This document shows, piece by piece, positions 6,819 through 18,659 of a DNA stretch of 46,722 nt. This stretch comes from Phycisphaeraceae bacterium. GTDB taxonomy: Bacteria; Planctomycetota; Phycisphaerae; Phycisphaerales; Phycisphaeraceae. Location: assembly GCA_020831765.1 (NCBI GenBank), contig JAFIFY010000158.1, positions 1 through 46,722 on the forward strand, written 5' to 3'. Within the stretch, counting starts at the first letter, position 1; each line of letters begins with the position of its first letter. The translations under genes and the position numbers were made by a program. The notes beneath the pieces are model-generated. The model worked only from the letters and a program-made list of their open reading frames with translations. It had not been told where the DNA came from and did not search any database.

Positions 6819-9104
6819 ATGGACGAAACGATTCTCACACTCCTGGTCCTCGCCATGCTGATGCCGCTGGCCGGCACCGTGCTCTTGCTCTGCGCCGGCC
6901 GGATGATCGGTGATCGGGCAGGCTGGGTGGCCACGTCGCTATTGGGGTTCTCCTTTCTGTGTTGTGTGACGATCTGGGGGATGTGGCCGGATCGAGGTCA
7001 CCGGGTACTGGCCCTTTACAACTGGTTGCCGATCACCGCCGACGGCGCCGGCTTTCTTGAAGTGGGATTGTTTCTGGACAGCCTGGGCGTCGCGATGATG
7101 GCGATGGTCAGTGGCATCGCCGCCCTGGTTCACCTTTACAGCATCGGCTACATGCGGGGTGATCCCCGTTATACGCGCTTCTTCGCCTATCTTTCCCTGT
7201 TCACCTTTTCGATGATGGGCATTGTCATCAGCCCATCCCTGATCCAACTGCTGGTCTTCTGGGAACTGGTCGGCTTGACCAGCTATCTGCTGATCGGGTT
7301 CTGGTACGAGAAGCGCGCTCCCCAGCTTGCCTGCCGCAAGGCGTTCATCATGAATCGCGTGGGTGATGCCGGTTTTCTGATCGGCTTGGGCATTCTCTTC
7401 GCCCAGCTTGGTGGGCATCTGCTGCTTCCGGCGACCGAAGGCATGCTGATGGCCGACGGGAACCATATCAAGTCCATGATCGGCGCCCTGGCCGCGACGG
7501 AGGCGGCCGGTCAGGTCGCCTCCAGCCATGCGGGGCTCAATGACTGGCTTGGACTGGGTTCGACCGGGTGGCTGTCCCTGGCGGGGCTGGGGCTTTTCTG
7601 CGGCGCGGTGGGCAAGAGCGCGCAGTTTCCACTCCATACGTGGCTGCCCGATGCCATGGAGGGACCGACACCCGTTTCATCGATCGTCCATTCGGCGACC
7701 ATGGTGGCCGCCGGTGTGTTCCTCACGGCTCGTATCTATCCGATCCTCACGCCCGAGGCGCGGCTGGTCATCGCCTCGATCGGGTTGATCACGCTGGTGA
7801 TGGCGGCGCTGATGGCGCTGGTGATGACCGACATCAAACGGGTGCTGGCGTATTCGACGCTGTCGCAACTGGGCTACATGGTCGTGGCCCTGGGCGTGGG
7901 CGCATGGGGATATGCGCTCTTTCATCTGATCACCCACGCGTTTTTCAAGTGCTGCCTGTTCCAGTGCGCCGGCTCGGTGATCCACGCCGCCCACCACGAG
8001 CAGGACATGCGGCGATATGGTGGCCTGGGCCGGAAAATGCCCTGGACCGCGGCGGCGTTTGGCATTTGCGTTCTGGCGATTTCGGGCGCGGCGATTCCGC
8101 TGACGACGCTGGGGCTGAGCGGGTTTTATTCCAAGGATGGCATCATCGCCGGCGCCTTCAACTTCGGCTTTGGAATCAGCGGTCAATGGGCCCCGGGTTG
8201 GCTCTTCTGGTTCCTGCCCCTGCTGGTCGCATACCTCACGCCGCTGTACATGGCCCGCGCCTTCGCGTTGACATTCATGGGTCGGCCACGCGTTGAATCA
8301 GTTCATCAGCACGCCCATGAAGCGCCGCCAAGCATGCTGATTCCGCAATTGGCCCTGGCGGTCATGGCGATCATCTCCGGGTGGATGCTCTGGAAGCCGA
8401 TGATCGAGGCAAGCCAGCCCGTGATGCAGGTCATGGGTATTCAGAGCTTCGCATGGCTCCATGAGCCGGGGAATCCGGGGATGAAGGCGGCTCATGCGTG
8501 GCTGCTGCAAGGTGCTGGATGGATCATTCCTCTGGCATTCGGATTGTGGTGGTATCGCGATGGATTGGGCCGCGCATCGCGCGTCGCCGAGTCGTGGGCG
8601 GTTCGTCCCATTCACCGGGCGCTGCTGAACAAGCTTTATTTCGATGTGGTTTATGACCGGTTGATCAGCGGCATGGTGGTTGCCCAGTCACGGATTTTGG
8701 ACTGGATCGACCGCCGGATCGTGGATGGGTTGGTGAACCGCACGGCGCATCTGGGTTCGGACCTTGCGACGGCGACGGGTCGGTTCGATCGCGATGTGAT
8801 TGATCGGTCGCTGGATGGCGCCGCCGAGTCGGTGTTGCAGGCCGGCGGTGTTCTGCGAACGACGCAGGCGGGTCGTGTCCGCATTTATGTGCTTGGAATC
8901 TTTGTGGCCATCCTGCTGGTCCTTATTGTGGTTCTGGCGTCGTTTCTTCCGATCTGGCGGGCGAGCGCTCCGTCCGCCGCGGCGACGGGACGTCCGGTGA
9001 TCTGGACGTTTGAATCCGACTTTGTTTCCGGCCATCGCCATGCTTCCGGCTCGCTTGGCGATTCAATCCCATTCTCAGCCAAGGAGGAGTCCATCAACCC
9101 ATGA
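6819..9104 (+). CDS. nuoL: NADH-quinone oxidoreductase subunit L
   Basis: NuoL is the distal antiporter-like subunit of complex I; its long lateral helix braces the membrane arm. The 761-residue protein has the Mrp/Nuo proton-channel core: FWELVGLTSYLLIGFWYEK near residue 150 and VGKSAQFPLHTWLPDAMEGP at about 265-285 with the conserved Lys and His. The essential broken helix around VHSATMVAAGVFL follows. The C-terminal lateral helix and an anchoring helix near residue 700 (IFVAILLVLIVVLASFLPIW) are seen. It is longer than many homologues (about 610-670) because of an extended, polar C-terminus. The stop overlaps the nuoM start (ATGA), and the nuoM ribosome-binding site AAGGAGGAG lies inside the nuoL end. 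Confidence 0.96.
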   Translation: MDETILTLLVLAMLMPLAGTVLLLCAGRMIGDRAGWVATSLLGFSFLCCVTIWGMWPDRGHRVLALYNWLPITADGAGFLEVGLFLDSLGVAMMAMVSGIAALVHLYSIGYMRGDPRYTRFFAYLSLFTFSMMGIVISPSLIQLLVFWELVGLTSYLLIGFWYEKRAPQLACRKAFIMNRVGDAGFLIGLGILFAQLGGHLLLPATEGMLMADGNHIKSMIGALAATEAAGQVASSHAGLNDWLGLGSTGWLSLAGLGLFCGAVGKSAQFPLHTWLPDAMEGPTPVSSIVHSATMVAAGVFLTARIYPILTPEARLVIASIGLITLVMAALMALVMTDIKRVLAYSTLSQLGYMVVALGVGAWGYALFHLITHAFFKCCLFQCAGSVIHAAHHEQDMRRYGGLGRKMPWTAAAFGICVLAISGAAIPLTTLGLSGFYSKDGIIAGAFNFGFGISGQWAPGWLFWFLPLLVAYLTPLYMARAFALTFMGRPRVESVHQHAHEAPPSMLIPQLALAVMAIISGWMLWKPMIEASQPVMQVMGIQSFAWLHEPGNPGMKAAHAWLLQGAGWIIPLAFGLWWYRDGLGRASRVAESWAVRPIHRALLNKLYFDVVYDRLISGMVVAQSRILDWIDRRIVDGLVNRTAHLGSDLATATGRFDRDVIDRSLDGAAESVLQAGGVLRTTQAGRVRIYVLGIFVAILLVLIVVLASFLPIWRASAPSAAATGRPVIWTFESDFVSGHRHASGSLGDSIPFSAKEESINP

Positions 9105-10969
9105 GTCTCCTGCTGAATTTCATGATCTTCCTGCCCGCGATCGGCGGCCTTCTCTGTCTTGCCGCGCCGGGAGGCCGTCAGGCCCGAAGCCTCGCGTTCT
9201 GGGTCACCGTGGTGACGCTGGCCATGAGCCTGATGCTGGTGGCGGCATTTGACTATTCAGCCGCCGGGCCGCAGTTCGAAACGGCCGTGCCTTGGATCAG
9301 CGCGATCAACGTCGAATATCGAACCGGCGTTGATGGGCTGTCGCTGTCGCTGGTGGTGCTGACGACGGGATTGGCGTTGCTGGGGCTTCTGGCTTCGTGG
9401 AACATCGAGAAATCGCCGAAGGTCTATTTTTCGCTTTACCTGTTCCTGCTGACCGGCATGCTGGGCGTCTTCCTGGCGCTGGACCTCTTTCTCTTCTACG
9501 TCTTTTTTGAGATTTCCCTGGTGCCGATGTACTTCCTGATCGGCATCTGGGGTGGGCCACGCAGGGAATACGCGGCCATCAAGTTCTTCCTGTTCACCCT
9601 GGCCGGTTCCATCTGCCTGCTGATCGTGATGCTCGGTCTGTACCTGGTCACCCCGCAGGCCGTGGGCAAGAACACATGGGTCATGGTGGCTTCGAGCACC
9701 TCCAGCGATCGCGGCTCGGAAGCGGTTCCGGCGACGCTGGTCGATGAACGGGTGCGACGCATGTTCGCCGGCCCCCGCTTTGACCTGGAACGGTGGAATG
9801 AAGCCGCTGGAGATGAATCCGGGCGAGAACTGATCGACGCCCTCCGGCTCGATGATCGCTCTGAATCCACCGAGGCGGTAAAGGCGGTGCTGGCCGAGCA
9901 GCTTCGGCTTCGGGGCGAGGCGGGCTTGGGACAATGGCTTGCGGAGTTCACGCAGGCGGTCCTGATCGAGGGTCGCAAGCCGTTGGCGCTTCCAGTGGAG
10001 GTCGGTGAAGCGAACTTGGACGATCGATACTGGTCGGTGCTGCTGGTCGATCAGGCCCGGGGCGGGCGCTATTGGGTCTTTGCGCAGTGGGCGTTCTGGC
10101 TTTCACTGATCGCGTTTCTGATCAAACTTCCTTCGGTTCCGTTCCACACGTGGCTTCCTGATGCCCATGTCGAGGCTCCGACGCCTATTTCGATGATTCT
10201 GGCGGGCGTCCTGCTGAAGATGGGTGGTTACGCGATGATGCGGATCACCTGGCCCTACTTCCCGGACGCGGCGATTGTCTTCTGGCACCTGGTGGCCGGA
10301 CTGGGTGTGCTGGCGATTCTCTACGGCGCATTCTGCGCGATGGCGCAGACCGACTGGAAGAAATTGGTCGCCTATTCATCGGTCAGTCACATGGGATATG
10401 TCACGCTGGGGATCGCGGTGATGACGGCCTCGGGCTGGAACGGCGCGTACTTTCAGATGATCGGCCACGGCGTATCCAGCGCGATGATGTTTTTCCTGGT
10501 GGGCGTGATCTACGAGCGAAGTCACCATCGCGATCTGGATCGCCTTGGAGGATTGTGGACGCGGTTCCCGGCCTTTGGCGGCTGGTCGATGGTGGGGTTC
10601 TTCGCGGCGATGGGCCTGCCGGGACTGTGCGGCTTCATCGGTGAGATTCTGGTTCTGCTGGGCACGTTCGATGCGGCTTCGCCCGGCGCGATCGGTGCCG
10701 GCTCGGTCGGACTGGTCTATGTCTACGGTGCCCTGGCCGCTTGCGGCGTGATCCTGACCGCCGGTTACATCCTCTGGATGTTTCAGCGTGTCTACATGGG
10801 ACGGCCGCGCGAGGAGTACCATGACTACGCCCCGATTTCGCGACGCGAATATCTGATCATGGGCGTGCTGGGGGTTGCGGCGATCGTGTTGGGCATCGTG
10901 CCCATGCTGGTTTTCGTGATGACCCGTGCGACGTTCGCGGGCATGCTCGCTTCCATGGGCGTCGGTTGA
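9101..10969 (+). CDS. nuoM: NADH-quinone oxidoreductase subunit M with large polar insertion
   Basis: NuoM is the middle antiporter-like subunit of complex I. The family core is clear: FEISLVPMYFLIGIWGG near residue 145, the conserved Glu in this helix, then IKLPSVPFHTWLPDAHVEAP near residue 340 with the channel Lys, and KKLVAYSSVSHMGY near residue 425. Unusually, the loop between YLVTPQ (about 184) and the next helix (WVFAQWAFW, about 325) is close to 140 residues long; in E. coli NuoM it is roughly 25-30. The extra part is charged and shows no membrane segment, and the frame is unbroken with the same codon style, so it is an in-frame insertion. Total length is 622 residues. It overlaps nuoL by four bases. 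Confidence 0.95.
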   Translation: MSLLLNFMIFLPAIGGLLCLAAPGGRQARSLAFWVTVVTLAMSLMLVAAFDYSAAGPQFETAVPWISAINVEYRTGVDGLSLSLVVLTTGLALLGLLASWNIEKSPKVYFSLYLFLLTGMLGVFLALDLFLFYVFFEISLVPMYFLIGIWGGPRREYAAIKFFLFTLAGSICLLIVMLGLYLVTPQAVGKNTWVMVASSTSSDRGSEAVPATLVDERVRRMFAGPRFDLERWNEAAGDESGRELIDALRLDDRSESTEAVKAVLAEQLRLRGEAGLGQWLAEFTQAVLIEGRKPLALPVEVGEANLDDRYWSVLLVDQARGGRYWVFAQWAFWLSLIAFLIKLPSVPFHTWLPDAHVEAPTPISMILAGVLLKMGGYAMMRITWPYFPDAAIVFWHLVAGLGVLAILYGAFCAMAQTDWKKLVAYSSVSHMGYVTLGIAVMTASGWNGAYFQMIGHGVSSAMMFFLVGVIYERSHHRDLDRLGGLWTRFPAFGGWSMVGFFAAMGLPGLCGFIGEILVLLGTFDAASPGAIGAGSVGLVYVYGALAACGVILTAGYILWMFQRVYMGRPREEYHDYAPISRREYLIMGVLGVAAIVLGIVPMLVFVMTRATFAGMLASMGVG

Positions 10970-11038: not shown

Positions 11039-12778
11039 ATGCTTGGCGCCATTCCCCCAGTTGATCTGCCCACCTGGACCGAGCTTCGGCTGGTCATGCC
11101 CGAGCTTGTGCTGACGGTGGGCATGGTCATCGTGCTGATGGGGGCGATGGCGGCCCGGGGCAGGCCCGGTGTTCCGATCGTGCTGGCGATGGTCACGGCG
11201 ATCGCCGGCATGGTGGCCGTTGGGCTGACCATGTTCGAGCCGGCCGAGGCCGGTATCGAGCGACTGATCTTCCACCAGACATTGGCCATCGACCCCTTCA
11301 GTCAGTTCTTCAAGCTGCTGTTGATGCTCACGATCCTGCTGGTTCTGATTCAGTGGATGGGGCTTCACCGAGGCCAGGATGACCTTGAACCGAGTGATTG
11401 GCCGGATTACGCATGCCTGCTGCTGGGCGCTGCGCTGGGCATGTCGCTGCTGGCCAGCGCTCGAGACCTCCTGGTGGTTCTGATCGCGATGGAGACCGCA
11501 TCGCTACCCAGTTATGTGCTGGCGGGCATCCGCAAGCGACGCCGCCTCGGAGCGGAAGCTTCGATGAAGTTCGTTTTGATCGGCGCGGTCGCCACGGGGC
11601 TGATGGTCTATGGGATGTCGCTGCTCTACGGCGCATCGGGCAGTCTGAAGCTGGATGCGATCGTGGGCGCGGCCAATGATGGCATCACGCCGATCTGGGC
11701 CGTGGGCATGATCTTCCTCTTCACCGGGTTCGCGTTCAAACTATCGGCCGTGCCGCTGCACTTCTGGTGCCCGGATGTGTTCGAGGGAGCGCCATTCGAT
11801 GTGGCGACCTTTCTTTCCGTGGCTTCGAAGGGCGCGGCGGTGGTCCTGCTTGCGCGTATGGTGGACCTCTTCGGGGCGTACTCCGGGTCGCATGGCGGTG
11901 AGGCGGGAATGGCGATGCTGCTGGGTGTGGGCATCTTCGGCGCGGTGACCGCGACCTGGGGCAACCTCGTGGCGCTTCGACAGACGCGGATTCGCCGAAT
12001 GCTGGCCTACAGCTCGATCGCCCAGGCGGGATACATGATCATGGCGGTGGCGGCGCTCTCCGTGGCGGGTTCCGGCCACAGCGCCGAAGCCATGACCGCC
12101 ATCCTCTTCTATCTGACGGTCTACCTCTTCATGAATGTTGGCGCGTTTACCCTGGCCGCGCGAATCAGCGCGGCGTCGGGCAGCGAGGAGATGTCATCCA
12201 TGGCCGGTTGGATTCACCGCCGACCTCTGGAAGTGGTCTTGTTGGGCATCTTTCTGCTGAGCCTCTTCGGCCTTCCGACGCTGGGCGGTTTCCTGGGCAA
12301 GTGGTATCTGGCGGTGGTCATGGGCCGACTGGGCGAGATCGGCATCGCGCTGGTGGTGGTGCTCCTGGTCAATACGCTGTTCAGCCTGGCCTTCTATCTC
12401 AAGCCGCTCTACCACATGGTGCTGCAACCGATGCCCCAAGGCGGCGAGGCCGTTGCTTCCGCCGGCTCGCGGTCGGATCATTCTCCAATCGGATTGGGTG
12501 TGGCGATCGTATGCGCGGCCGGGGTTTTCTGGACCGGCTTGGACCTTGGAGCCACCTCATTGATCCGTCCGTTCGGCCACACCGCCGGACGGGGGATGGT
12601 CGAGACGCGAGGCGATCCGCCCGCTGCGGTTCAACAGACGATTTTTGACAAGGACGCTGAATCGAACTTGCGCCCCTCGTCACAGCGCCCGGGGGCCTCG
12701 CTGAGTCGAACAGTTGAATTCACGGGTGACCATGCGCCATCTGGCTCGTTGAAACCAAGCTCAGTGATCAACCCATGA
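11039..12778 (+). CDS. nuoN: NADH-quinone oxidoreductase subunit N
   Basis: NuoN is the proximal antiporter-like subunit of complex I. The 579-residue protein has about 14 hydrophobic segments and the family blocks LLVVLIAMETASLPSYVLAG (helix with the conserved Glu, near residue 155), EASMKFVLIGAVATGLMVYG, and FKLSAVPLHFWCPDVFEGAP near residues 235-252 with the channel Lys. The next family block is RQTRIRRMLAYSSIAQAGYM near 320. The last about 60 residues are polar and not typical of the family. The start at 11039 follows GAGAGGAAA by about ten bases, 69 bases after nuoM. The stop overlaps the next gene (ATGA), so that unknown gene belongs to this operon. Confidence 0.95.
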   Translation: MLGAIPPVDLPTWTELRLVMPELVLTVGMVIVLMGAMAARGRPGVPIVLAMVTAIAGMVAVGLTMFEPAEAGIERLIFHQTLAIDPFSQFFKLLLMLTILLVLIQWMGLHRGQDDLEPSDWPDYACLLLGAALGMSLLASARDLLVVLIAMETASLPSYVLAGIRKRRRLGAEASMKFVLIGAVATGLMVYGMSLLYGASGSLKLDAIVGAANDGITPIWAVGMIFLFTGFAFKLSAVPLHFWCPDVFEGAPFDVATFLSVASKGAAVVLLARMVDLFGAYSGSHGGEAGMAMLLGVGIFGAVTATWGNLVALRQTRIRRMLAYSSIAQAGYMIMAVAALSVAGSGHSAEAMTAILFYLTVYLFMNVGAFTLAARISAASGSEEMSSMAGWIHRRPLEVVLLGIFLLSLFGLPTLGGFLGKWYLAVVMGRLGEIGIALVVVLLVNTLFSLAFYLKPLYHMVLQPMPQGGEAVASAGSRSDHSPIGLGVAIVCAAGVFWTGLDLGATSLIRPFGHTAGRGMVETRGDPPAAVQQTIFDKDAESNLRPSSQRPGASLSRTVEFTGDHAPSGSLKPSSVINP

Positions 12779-13281
12779 ACGAACACACCATGCCGGAGGA
12801 ACTGCTCGATCTGATGGAGAGCCTTCTGGAACAGGAGGATCGCAGCCCTTTGCGCCTGGTGGAATCTGTCAGGCCGTACCTGACGCCTCGAACGGTGCGG
12901 CTCTGGCGGGATATGAGGGATATGGCGGCGCATGCCGTGCGTAGCCGCATGGCCGTGGTCACGATGCTCGATCGTCTCGGCCGGACGCCGCCGGAGAAAG
13001 CTTACGCCAGTGAAGTGCAGTTGGCCGGTTACCTGAATCTTGAGAAGTTGGTTCCAGGAACGATCGATCAACTGGCCGAGGAAGTTCGGCTGCTCGAAGA
13101 GATCAACGCCCAATCACAAGGCCACCCCGATATCGCCAGGGTTACAGACCGGCTCTTGGATGTGCGACGCCGGAATCTTGATTGTCTTCGAGCCCACGCC
13201 CGCGGTTTGGGCCCGGATGCCCAGAGCGCTGTACTGGCCAAGCCGCTCAAGCCCGGCGATAACCCCGCACAGCACATTTGA
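12775..13281 (+). CDS. Unknown helical protein at the end of the nuo operon (168 aa)
   Basis: The ATG overlaps the nuoN stop in an ATGA arrangement, which indicates translational coupling to the complex I membrane subunits. The 168-residue product is predicted, by eye, to be almost wholly alpha-helical and highly charged, with leucine-rich amphipathic stretches (LLDLMESLLEQ, IDQLAEEVRLLEEI, RVTDRLLDVRRRNLDCLR). It has no membrane segment, no signal peptide, a single cysteine and no nucleotide-binding motif. I do not recognise the family. From position it could be an accessory or assembly factor for complex I, or simply an unrelated passenger; the sequence does not decide. Confidence 0.65.
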   Translation: MNEHTMPEELLDLMESLLEQEDRSPLRLVESVRPYLTPRTVRLWRDMRDMAAHAVRSRMAVVTMLDRLGRTPPEKAYASEVQLAGYLNLEKLVPGTIDQLAEEVRLLEEINAQSQGHPDIARVTDRLLDVRRRNLDCLRAHARGLGPDAQSAVLAKPLKPGDNPAQHI

Positions 13282-13311
13282 ATTCCGCCGTCAGGGGGCA
13301 GAGATCAGCGC

Positions 13312-13344
13312 AAAAAATAAGACGGCGAACGAAAGCCGTCTTAT
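13312..13344 (-). terminator. Strong intrinsic terminator on the minus strand
   Basis: A perfect 10-bp stem, ATAAGACGGC (13317-13326) and its complement at 13335-13344, encloses an eight-base loop. Read on the minus strand the stem is followed by six T residues (13317 to 13312). On the plus strand no T run follows, so it is not a good terminator for the nuo operon. It must end a minus-strand transcript, although no protein gene lies upstream on that strand. Confidence 0.8.
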
Positions 13345-13640
13345 CACTGCCTCCCCAGCCTGGTATCCGAAGATCCTGCCTCGAGTATCCCTCGAAGGTC
13401 TCGGATACGCCCACCTCGCTTCACCCCCTGCTTGGGTTCGGCCCGAGTCCCTTGAACGCACTGCGTTTCAGTGGGGGGAGTCCTCCAACTCCAGGCCGAC
13501 CGGCCCCCGCGGAACTCCTTCTAGCTCCTCATGCCCGGCATCGAACCTACCGCGCCCTCGGAAACCTCACGACCCGACAAAGTTTGAACGAATCACGAGC
13601 ACGCCGTGCCAATCCTCAAAATCTCTCTTCCTTGCCGAAT
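13312..13640 (-). ncRNA. Probable structured noncoding RNA of unknown family
   Basis: Just upstream of the minus-strand terminator lies a run of hairpins in a region without a convincing gene. They are a long interrupted stem at 13363-13408 (8 bp outer, 7 bp inner stem), CACTG/CAGTG at 13459-13473, GGAGT/ACTCC at 13477-13492, and a 6-bp stem at 13511-13528. G-U pairs in two stems favour the minus strand; one stem (13431-13447) pairs better on the plus strand. The RNA would be roughly 220-360 nt. The 5' end is uncertain; a TTGACT at 13688-13683 might be a -35 box but no good -10 follows. Diagnostic motifs of RNase P RNA, tmRNA and SRP RNA were not found, and 6S RNA could not be excluded. Confidence 0.5.
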
Positions 13641-13665
13641 CGCCCGATGGGACGTTTTGCTGACA

Positions 13666-14043
13666 TGCCATTACTGTACCACAGTCAACTGGTGCGGGGT
13701 AGGGGGGTGACGAGATTTTCTTCAGAATTTCCGTCGGACTTCCGGTCGCTCTCCAGTCTTTAGAGTGACTGGGCCCAATTGTCCTCAGGCCATTGGTTTT
13801 TGCTTGCGCCTGGATCGGCCAAAGCGGTGGCCTTGCCTATGCCGATATCGGATAGGAGTTTACGGGCTATTGCTCCGGGCATGGATCGGTCCCATGGTAA
13901 GCCCTGGTCCGATGGCAATTGAAGCCGCCTTCGAAGGTTTCGGGGGGAAGGTTGGTTCGGATGTGGCTTTCGATCGAAGTTATGATTCAGGTCCGGCCGA
14001 TGTAGGTCCAGCGGCCAAACTCACTTGAACCGGAAGATCAGGC
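13666..14043. other. Intergenic stretch before the glycan genes
   Basis: About 380 bases between the candidate RNA and the methyltransferase. An 87-codon plus-strand frame at 13765-14028 is open but its composition is not protein-like and I do not call it. It must hold the promoter of the methyltransferase operon, which I cannot locate with confidence. Confidence 0.35.
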
Positions 14044-14844
14044 ATGGACAAGAATTATCGGAGCCGGGATCCCCGGTTTTTTGAGGATCGGGATCAGATC
14101 ACCCGTACCGCGGCCGAGGCCGTGGTGCCCCTGATGGTCCAATGGTTCTCGCCGCGCAGTGTCATTGATCTGGGTTGCGGGGTTGGCACATGGCTCAAGG
14201 TTTTCGCCGAACATGGTATCGAGCGAATCCATGGCGTTGAGGGTACGGAGGTTGATCCGGCTGACCTGAAGATTCCCGTGGAAACTTTCGAGCGGTATGA
14301 CCTTTCCAGGGCCTACCAGAGGGATCAGCAATATGACCTGGCCATGAGCCTGGAGGTGGCTGAGCACATCCCGCCCGAGTCGGCTGATGGCTTCGTGGAT
14401 TCGCTGGTGGGCCTGGCGCCGGTGGTGCTTTTCTCGGCGGCGGTTCCCGGGCAGGGCGGCATCCATCACGTCAACGAGCAATGGCCTGATTACTGGGTCT
14501 CGAAGTTCGATACGCGCGGCTACCGCGTCATTGATGCCATTCGGCCGCGCATCTGGCGGCGGGAAGACCTCAAGGGTTGGTACCGGCAGAATATGCTGCT
14601 GTTCGTCGCCGATCAGATTCTTGAATCCAGCGAGGAACTCAAGCAGGAGCGAGCCAATACCCGCATGGAGCAGCTAAACCTGGTGCATCCGCAGATACTG
14701 GAATGGAAGATCGGTAGCCATGCCCAAGAGGTCCGGCGGCTCAAGGAAATGACGCTTGGCAAGGTTCTGCGCCTCTTGCCGGGCCTGGTGCGCCAATCGG
14801 TTGCCGTCCGCTGGCGGCGTCTGACGGGACGGGAGTCGGTGTGA
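14044..14844 (+). CDS. Class I SAM-dependent methyltransferase
   Basis: The 266-residue protein has the Rossmann-type SAM-binding motif I, SVIDLGCGVGTWL, near residues 39-51, an acidic end of strand two (VEGTEVD), and a motif-like strand LAMSLEVAEHIPP near residue 100, where EVAEH is typical of this methyltransferase group. The domain occupies about residues 10-190; the C-terminal 70 residues are helical and basic. Homologues of this type often sit in polysaccharide clusters and modify sugars or glycan intermediates. The stop overlaps the downstream glycosyltransferase start (TGATG at 14842-14846), so the genes form an operon. The substrate is not visible. Confidence 0.88.
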   Translation: MDKNYRSRDPRFFEDRDQITRTAAEAVVPLMVQWFSPRSVIDLGCGVGTWLKVFAEHGIERIHGVEGTEVDPADLKIPVETFERYDLSRAYQRDQQYDLAMSLEVAEHIPPESADGFVDSLVGLAPVVLFSAAVPGQGGIHHVNEQWPDYWVSKFDTRGYRVIDAIRPRIWRREDLKGWYRQNMLLFVADQILESSEELKQERANTRMEQLNLVHPQILEWKIGSHAQEVRRLKEMTLGKVLRLLPGLVRQSVAVRWRRLTGRESV

Positions 14845-17278: not shown

Positions 17279-18433
17279 TCAGGAACGGTTATCCAGAAAC
17301 TTGGCGGGGCTTTCCGGCTGCCGGGTGCGGATTGAAAGCAGGGTGGCGTGACAGCAACTCAGGATGCTGCGATATCGGATCGAGGCCGCCGGGCGGGTGA
17401 GGGACTGACTGGGATCGTGTACAACGCCCGGGTGCGGTTTGGTTGGTTCATCACGTTGGATGGATGAGGAGTCGGGCGGGTCTTGGGGTGTGTATCCCTG
17501 GGTTCGATTGACCTGGCGCAGTCGGTTCAGGTGATGGCGAAGCTGGCGGGTGATCAGTTCGACAAAGTCGTGGCGGCCGGTGGGCCTGCGCTGGTCCAGG
17601 AGTTCTCCCTCGGCCGTCCATAGGCGATAGTCCTGTTCGCCAACCATCACGGTGGCCTTGGTGCCGATCATGTGCAGGCGTCCCCATCCGGCGGGGTGCT
17701 GATCGCTGACTTGAATGCTGGCCATGGCCTTGCGGGGCAGTGCGCCGATGGCGCTCAGGTGCCCTGTCATGCCGCGCAGGGCCGTGGGACCGCCGGACGG
17801 CGCCATGGATTCACCGGCGGCGGGTCTCCAGACCGCCCAGATGTCGTCGGGCACATCGGCCAGATCAATGACCGTCTGCCATGCATCGAAGAGGCAGGCG
17901 AAAAGGGAAAGCTCCCCCGGCCGGCGAAACAATGCCAGTTCCATCATCTGGGGCTCATCGATGGCCTGCATGGGATCGGTCGCCTCGATCCAGCCCCGTG
18001 CCGCGAGAAACGCCGGGACCCCCAGGACCATCACCCTGTCCGCGAGGTGCCCGGAGGTCGCCGGGTTTCGCGACTGGCCGGTCCGCCGCGTCTTGAAGAT
18101 CGCATCCACATCATCGAGCCCGATCATGGGCGGTTCGATGAACCAGATGGCCGCGCCTTGCTCGAGCGCTTCGGCAAGGTCGGAAGGTTCGATACGCTCG
18201 GCGGTGGCCACCAGGCAGACGGCCGCCGGGAACTCGATCAGCATGCGGCGGAAGTCGTCGCACAACTCGGCGGACGATTCCCGCGCCAGCCCGGCGAAGT
18301 CTGCCGCGCGTGGCCCGCCCATGGCCACGATGTTGATTTGTCCGGTTAGGCGCTTGATCGCCGCCGCCCAGATTGATTGACGCGCGCTGTCCAGCCACAT
18401 GACGAGCCGGGGACCTGTTGATTCCTTGGCCAT
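17279..18433 (-). CDS. Gfo/Idh/MocA-like protein with altered active-site motif
   Basis: The 384-residue protein has the layout of the Gfo/Idh/MocA oxidoreductases: an N-terminal Rossmann-like half and a C-terminal half with WGRLHMIGTKATVMVG resembling the G-T-G strand of the family. The usual glycine-rich nucleotide motif is not obvious at the N-terminus (LVMWLDSARQSIWAAAIKRL). The signature EKP, which holds the catalytic lysine, reads EPP (IWFIEPPMIG) near residue 105. Cofactor use and catalysis are therefore doubtful. The last about 80 residues are polar, low in structure and unlike the family, which may reflect a frameshift or a real tail. The start is the ATG at 18433, with GTG one codon earlier also possible. 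Confidence 0.6.
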   Translation of the reverse strand: MAKESTGPRLVMWLDSARQSIWAAAIKRLTGQINIVAMGGPRAADFAGLARESSAELCDDFRRMLIEFPAAVCLVATAERIEPSDLAEALEQGAAIWFIEPPMIGLDDVDAIFKTRRTGQSRNPATSGHLADRVMVLGVPAFLAARGWIEATDPMQAIDEPQMMELALFRRPGELSLFACLFDAWQTVIDLADVPDDIWAVWRPAAGESMAPSGGPTALRGMTGHLSAIGALPRKAMASIQVSDQHPAGWGRLHMIGTKATVMVGEQDYRLWTAEGELLDQRRPTGRHDFVELITRQLRHHLNRLRQVNRTQGYTPQDPPDSSSIQRDEPTKPHPGVVHDPSQSLTRPAASIRYRSILSCCHATLLSIRTRQPESPAKFLDNRS

Positions 18434-18659
18434 CACATCAGGATATCGTCCGAAATGGGAGATGCGAGTCAGTTATGTAAGGCCGCACGGGTGATGGGCG
18501 ATCAGCATCGCTCCACGAGGCGGCCGAGTTCCCCGCCTGTTTGTGGCTTTTGTCGATCTCCTGTCACGCTGATCGACCTTGGACCGTACGATCTGAGCGC
18601 GGATCGGAAGGGCGATGTGAACGGCAATCCTGGTTTCGGTCATTCTCGTATTGGATAAC

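Follow-up and report, generated by a model that had tools for sequence, protein, structure and literature searches.

A minus-strand terminator without a co-oriented gene at the edge of a nuo operon: a modest candidate for a small RNA or for a guard against antisense transcription

Results

The window analysed here is a stretch of 46,722 nucleotides from a 4.7 Mb draft genome of a Phycisphaeraceae bacterium in 193 contigs. It contains a nuo operon run on the plus strand. The last gene of this run (12775–13281, 168 aa) belongs to no Pfam family and overlaps the end of nuoN by 4 bases; relatives of it (22–34% identity) were found in 11 of the 50 other family genomes searched. A gap of 762 bases (13282–14043) separates it from a group of glycan genes, the first of which is a methyltransferase-like gene on the plus strand (14044–14844). 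The plus-strand TATGAT at 13981–13986, 57 nt before the methyltransferase gene, is a possible promoter of the glycan genes. The plus strand of the gap also has a weak terminator-like site (13775–13796), a 9-bp stem with one mismatch followed by TTTTT, that could end nuo read-through transcripts. Its score is 9, a value that several other sites in the window reach, and when the surrounding 45 bases are folded, the predicted terminator hairpin does not form.

On the minus strand of the gap lies an intrinsic terminator (13312–13344), whose stem starts 36 nt past the last base of the 168-aa gene. It reads ATAAGACGGC-TTTCGTTC-GCCGTCTTAT, then TTTTT, with the stem at 13317–13326/13335–13344, the loop at 13327–13334 and the U tract at 13312–13316. 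A previous reading of the sequence alone had described a perfect 10-bp stem followed by six T residues. The stem is as described, but the six T residues count base 13317 twice, the first T in the run of six being the last paired base. The A-run on the plus strand spans 13312–13317; hence the hairpin has either a 10-bp stem with 5 U or a 9-bp stem with 6 U. The stem-loop has an energy of −14.5 kcal/mol on the minus strand, and its stem is the sole inverted repeat of at least 10 nt (arms at most 150 bases apart) listed in 13200–14060. A consensus terminator scan omitted the site, probably because a closing G-T pair was added, leaving too few T residues counted.

The meaning of such a hairpin was calibrated on the same genome. 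Sites with a stem of at least 9 perfect base pairs plus a T tail were counted in two samples, one of 20 stretches and the window (354,684 bp) and one of 20 more stretches (311,108 bp), 665,792 bp in total; genes were called by a simple codon model, which made at least one probably wrong call, on the opposite strand over a tRNA terminator (locus L130). There were nine strong sites in the first sample and seven in the second, 16 in total. The nine compare with a mean of 0.2 in five sets simulated with a first-order Markov model. Apart from the site under study, 12 of the 15 follow a same-strand gene; as three hairpins were counted on both strands, the 12 represent nine different ones, and two of the 12 sites lie 346 and 447 nt past the gene. 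One further site follows a 5S rRNA (L135) and another lies 16 nt past the tRNA at L130. Strong sites of this kind mark transcript ends in this genome, so a minus-strand RNA probably ends at 13312.

The last of the 15 sites is a second orphan (locus L158, contig G000:C29 of the same genome). It occupies 18111–18142 on the minus strand, with a perfect 11-bp stem and 8 T. The site stands 89 nt beyond the 3′ end of a plus-strand gene, and in the minus-strand direction the gap upstream of it is 852 nt long. A 9-bp hairpin stands upstream of this terminator, the TATAGT at 18592 is a possible −10 element, and no Rfam family matches above a cut-off. The unit at L158 and the one in the window have only a 21-base match in common (E 0.013). 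Each orphan stands at the edge of a gene into which antisense transcription would run if nothing stopped it.

The absence of a protein gene before the terminator on the minus strand, claimed previously, is borne out. Open stretches of at least 30 codons that reach into 13282–14043 number 16, of which 14 have a negative codon score on the genome's own usage; the other two, both on the minus strand, are near zero (+1.7 and +0.6). A small ORF at 13567–13671 (34 aa) scores −3.6, its ATG lies upstream of the predicted transcript start, and no ribosome site was seen for it by eye. Upstream on the minus-strand side, 699 nt separate the terminator from the nearest gene, which is encoded on the opposite strand. 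A terminator without a co-oriented gene (13312–13344) and a gap that looks non-coding are features shared with intergenic sRNA genes.

No known RNA family was found at the element, in agreement with the sequence-only reading, and nothing reaches an Rfam cut-off. At gathering cut-offs, Rfam gave only a tRNA in the whole window. At E up to 10, it gave on the gap only STnc250, on the other strand and with 13.7 bits against a cut-off of 42, which is a chance match. RNase P RNA (RF00010), tmRNA (RF00023) and the small SRP RNA (RF00169) occur elsewhere in the genome, on contigs G000:C31, C146 and C128, and had no match at the studied locus. The suggestion that the element might be a 6S RNA did not hold up. 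RF00013 has no match at the locus even at E up to 10, and the genome's own 6S RNA lies at G000:C99:18602–18786 (47.3 bits, barely above the cut-off of 46.4). The likeness to 6S RNA is confined to the broad idea of a non-coding RNA some hundreds of bases long, and the element is very unlikely to be a 6S RNA.

The region upstream of the terminator had been read as a structured RNA with four hairpins. All four hairpins are in place, but on the minus strand three have stems of 5–6 bp (−4.1 to −6.8 kcal/mol). With Watson-Crick pairs only, 3 hairpins with arms of at least 5 were found, a number that 31 of 200 simulations attain (expectation 1.5), and none with arms of at least 6. With G-U pairs allowed, the counts are 11 against 7.2 expected for arms of at least 5 (4 of 200 simulations) and 5 against 4.0 for arms of at least 6 (74 of 200). 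The only other strong local structure is a compound hairpin (13363–13408, minus strand, −21.5 kcal/mol), 18 nt upstream of the terminator. Its z-score is −4.3 at its exact ends, which were chosen post hoc, −3.0 with 4-nt flanks and −2.3 over 67 nt. The last value is not rare, since 19 of 300 intergenic 67-nt tiles (drawn from 667) have z ≤ −2. On the plus strand this hairpin folds nearly as well (−20.0 kcal/mol) and so does not fix the strand. The preference of G-U pairs for the minus strand, another claim of the earlier reading, holds for two small hairpins. The minus strand is, however, rich in G in this region, and both strong stems fold almost equally on either strand.

Taken without the terminator, the region (13346–13665) has minus-strand and plus-strand z-scores of −0.43 and +0.07. 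The background, made of 40 other gaps of at least 330 bases folded on both strands (n = 80; the studied gap and the rRNA gap left out), has a mean of −0.58 and a standard deviation of 1.09, with half of the values at or below −0.43. RNase P RNA, tmRNA, 6S RNA and SRP RNA of the same genome, used as positive controls, gave −4.7, −7.4, −3.4 and −2.8. The region without the terminator folds no better than its shuffles, and the structured-RNA part of the earlier reading mostly fails. When the terminator is included, z is −2.1 for 13312–13690 and −1.25 for 13312–13665. The last 100 nt (13312–13412), with the strong hairpin and the terminator, have z −3.7 on the minus strand, with none of 500 shuffles as stable; the value on the plus strand is −5.5, and the strand can therefore not be read from the fold. 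The remainder (13413–13665, z +0.36) has no excess folding.

Conservation in relatives, the absence of which the sequence-only reading had listed among the grounds for refuting its proposal, was not found. A DNA search at E 0.001 recovered the element in none of 60 relatives, a set with no genome of the same genus. The identical search recovered 6S RNA in 43 of the 60 and tmRNA in 53, some of the latter being short pieces of the tRNA-like end that may represent tRNAs instead. The last 101 nt, turned into a one-sequence structure model, gave chance-level matches only, in 4 of the 60 relatives (best E 0.02 per genome), and the best E of the model in 25 loci was 1.7 outside the window. There are thus no homologs to align for covariation, and among these relatives of other genera the element appears to be lineage-specific and may be young. 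When 400 genomes of the order were searched (own genome included, E up to 1), 346 had matches; among the matches listed, these were pieces of about 50 bases or less, with a best E of 0.00135 apart from the window itself. Such short matches are expected over so many genomes, and we regard them as chance. One piece (query about 164–192) recurs. In all six loci that were followed it falls inside a long reading frame that carries a conserved SGAAVSMPGMMDT-like motif, presumably that of pyruvate phosphate dikinase, and it was rejected as an RNA homolog and put down to coincidence. ARAGORN found no tRNA in nine loci from the 400-genome search, and Rfam found nothing in three.

The surroundings of nuoN were also compared. 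The NuoN relatives retained come mostly from Phycisphaeraceae, Phycisphaerales and other planctomycetes and have at most 50% identity; very near records were possibly left out of this search. The set comprises 37 loci (L003–L039), several of which are the same place twice and the first 11 of which (L003–L013) have short flanks. In some, nuoN is followed by a relative of the 168-aa gene. Six loci (L007, L010, L013, L014, L022 and L030), for which open stretches were listed, have terminator-like sites on the minus strand. In 91 of 93 loci (the other two, L001 and L002, are the window itself and were left out), nhmmer gave no hits and blastn gave chance matches only (best E 0.85).

The predicted non-coding transcript spans 13312–13666 on the minus strand. 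Its end is well supported and its start derives from a weak −10 motif at 13678; the resulting 355 nt make the previously proposed length of 220–360 nt plausible. The motif is a candidate extended −10 element (13673–13681, minus strand), TGGTACAGT, which is the gap's sole TGNTANNNT, stands at a TANNNTA and overlaps the plus-strand TACTGT at 13672–13677. In 762 bases at intergenic rates, 0.40 occurrences of TGNTANNNT (both strands) and 0.46 of TANNNTA are expected. A promoter scan found no sigma-70-like promoter, and we consider a start at exactly 13666 doubtful. TANNAT counts upstream of genes, from which the −10 consensus was judged, were 75 in the forward and 30 in the reverse direction. One hexamer of this form occurs on the minus strand of the gap (TACCAT, 13899), and a longer transcript, of about 575 nt, is therefore conceivable. 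The site TACTGTA at 13672–13678 is −10-like and symmetric and might serve transcription in both directions; the predicted starts would be 13666 and 13684, 18 bp apart.

The strongest minus-strand G-over-C segment of the gap (13689–13336) lies close to the predicted unit, and none of 2000 mononucleotide shuffles reaches its score. The G skew of the minus strand is 0.25 for 13346–13666 against −0.13 beyond, and of 91 intergenic tiles, 2 (including one from the rRNA gap) match it in either direction. After scaling by length, however, the segment ranks only 8th among 29 gaps of at least 400 bases. The genome's own RNase P RNA, tmRNA and 6S RNA have little skew. The promoter motif and the skew are only hints to the start and the strand.

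Discussion

Computation supports the terminator, the non-coding nature of the gap and the lack of conservation. The site is a modest candidate for an sRNA or for a guard against antisense transcription, and not a new kind of structured RNA. We tentatively favor, as the best explanation overall, a short non-coding minus-strand RNA that is stopped at the edge of the nuo operon. We infer that such an RNA is transcribed; it would start at the weak, possibly bidirectional promoter near 13678, or elsewhere further into the gap, and the intrinsic terminator at 13312 would halt it close behind the 3′ edge of the nuo operon. Most of the effect would lie in the stop itself, antisense transcription being ended before it enters the nuo genes, and an RNA of about 355 nt, complementary to any 3′ read-through of nuo, would be left over.

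That shielding of the operon is the main role is our leading reading, held with less than even confidence. The calibration argues for it, the strong sites other than the two orphans following same-strand genes or RNA genes, as does the second orphan, which has the same layout at the edge of an opposite-strand gene. The gap appears non-coding, and the G-over-C segment lies near the predicted unit. According to PMC10268837, bacteria have bidirectional promoters that share a symmetric −10 and whose starts lie 18 bp from each other. The divergent non-coding transcripts described there resemble the present case in the symmetric −10, the spacing of the (here predicted) starts and the non-coding nature of one product; the motif at our locus, in contrast, is weak and predicted only, and the RNA is ended by an intrinsic terminator. 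Several points weigh against shielding. About 0.4 motifs of this kind are expected in such a gap, the promoter scan is negative, the skewed segment ranks only 8th among the gaps when scaled by length, and the genome's own RNAs have little skew. Two orphans are a small number for a positional argument, and the genes used in the calibration come from the simple codon model with its probable error. The stem also folds on the plus strand, and its position is where a nuo 3′ end would usually lie. If both orphans are shields, they would be examples of terminators that guard the 3′ edges of genes against antisense transcription.

The main rival to shielding is a lineage-specific minus-strand gene for a regulatory sRNA that acts either in trans or, as a cis-antisense RNA, against nuo read-through mRNA, and we rate it as possible but somewhat unlikely. 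A strong hairpin, a linker and a terminator are the usual shape of the 3′ end of a bacterial sRNA, and the last 100 nt have this shape and fold better than all of their shuffles. The orphan at L158 likewise has a hairpin upstream of its terminator. Orphan Rho-independent terminators were scored as evidence in predicting intergenic sRNA genes in Sinorhizobium meliloti, according to PMC2573895, and those genes share with our element the non-coding gap and the terminator without a co-oriented gene. The present element differs in being unconserved in the relatives searched, in its weak promoter and in being predicted from sequence alone. Its absence from all 60 relatives, the chance-level matches of the structure model and the lack of excess folding outside the last 100 nt speak against an sRNA gene. 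Among the papers listed in literature searches on small RNAs in these bacteria, none had a title or opening abstract lines about sRNAs of Phycisphaerae. Orphan terminators calibrated on their own genome offer a cheap route to nominate sRNAs.

Next comes a reading with no minus-strand RNA at all, in which the hairpin belongs to the 3′ end of the plus-strand nuo mRNA, as a stability element or weak terminator, and the A-run is accidental. The short distance of the stem from the last stop codon fits this, as does its equal stability on the plus strand (−15.4 kcal/mol), and perfect intergenic hairpins with a weak T tract or none on either side do occur (5 of 12 in the sample; L131, L132 and L146). 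We nevertheless consider it unlikely: the plus-strand side of the stem continues as CACTGCCT, with no T tract, whereas on the opposite side an unbroken A-run directly adjoins the stem, as it does in the calibrated terminators.

Less probable still is that an RNA of about 355 nt, young and lineage-specific, would regulate complex I (nuo) expression from the 3′ side, by pairing with read-through or by polymerase collision, with the terminator protecting the operon and L158 as a second such unit. A remnant of a mobile element or a decayed gene would fit the lack of like sequence in any other genome searched, but is highly improbable given that the element is single-copy in its own genome apart from a 22-base piece, that phages and plasmids have no match at E up to 1, that the gap has no long repeat, that its two long plus-strand frames, the ones searched, have no Pfam match and that the codon scores of its open stretches are negative or near zero. 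The least credible reading makes the element a divergent 6S, RNase P, tmRNA or SRP RNA or a divergent form of another known RNA. The length of about 355 nt and the missing gene would suit this, but all four of these RNAs occur elsewhere in the genome above their cut-offs and the permissive Rfam search of the gap gave only the chance match to STnc250.

A minor observation concerns locus L132 (contig G000:C5 of the same genome), where two near-identical long perfect hairpins with weak T tracts lie at 6943–6978 and 10490–10519. They are in different gaps of one contig and have the stem core CAACGCCGACGC in common, and may be a repeated element.
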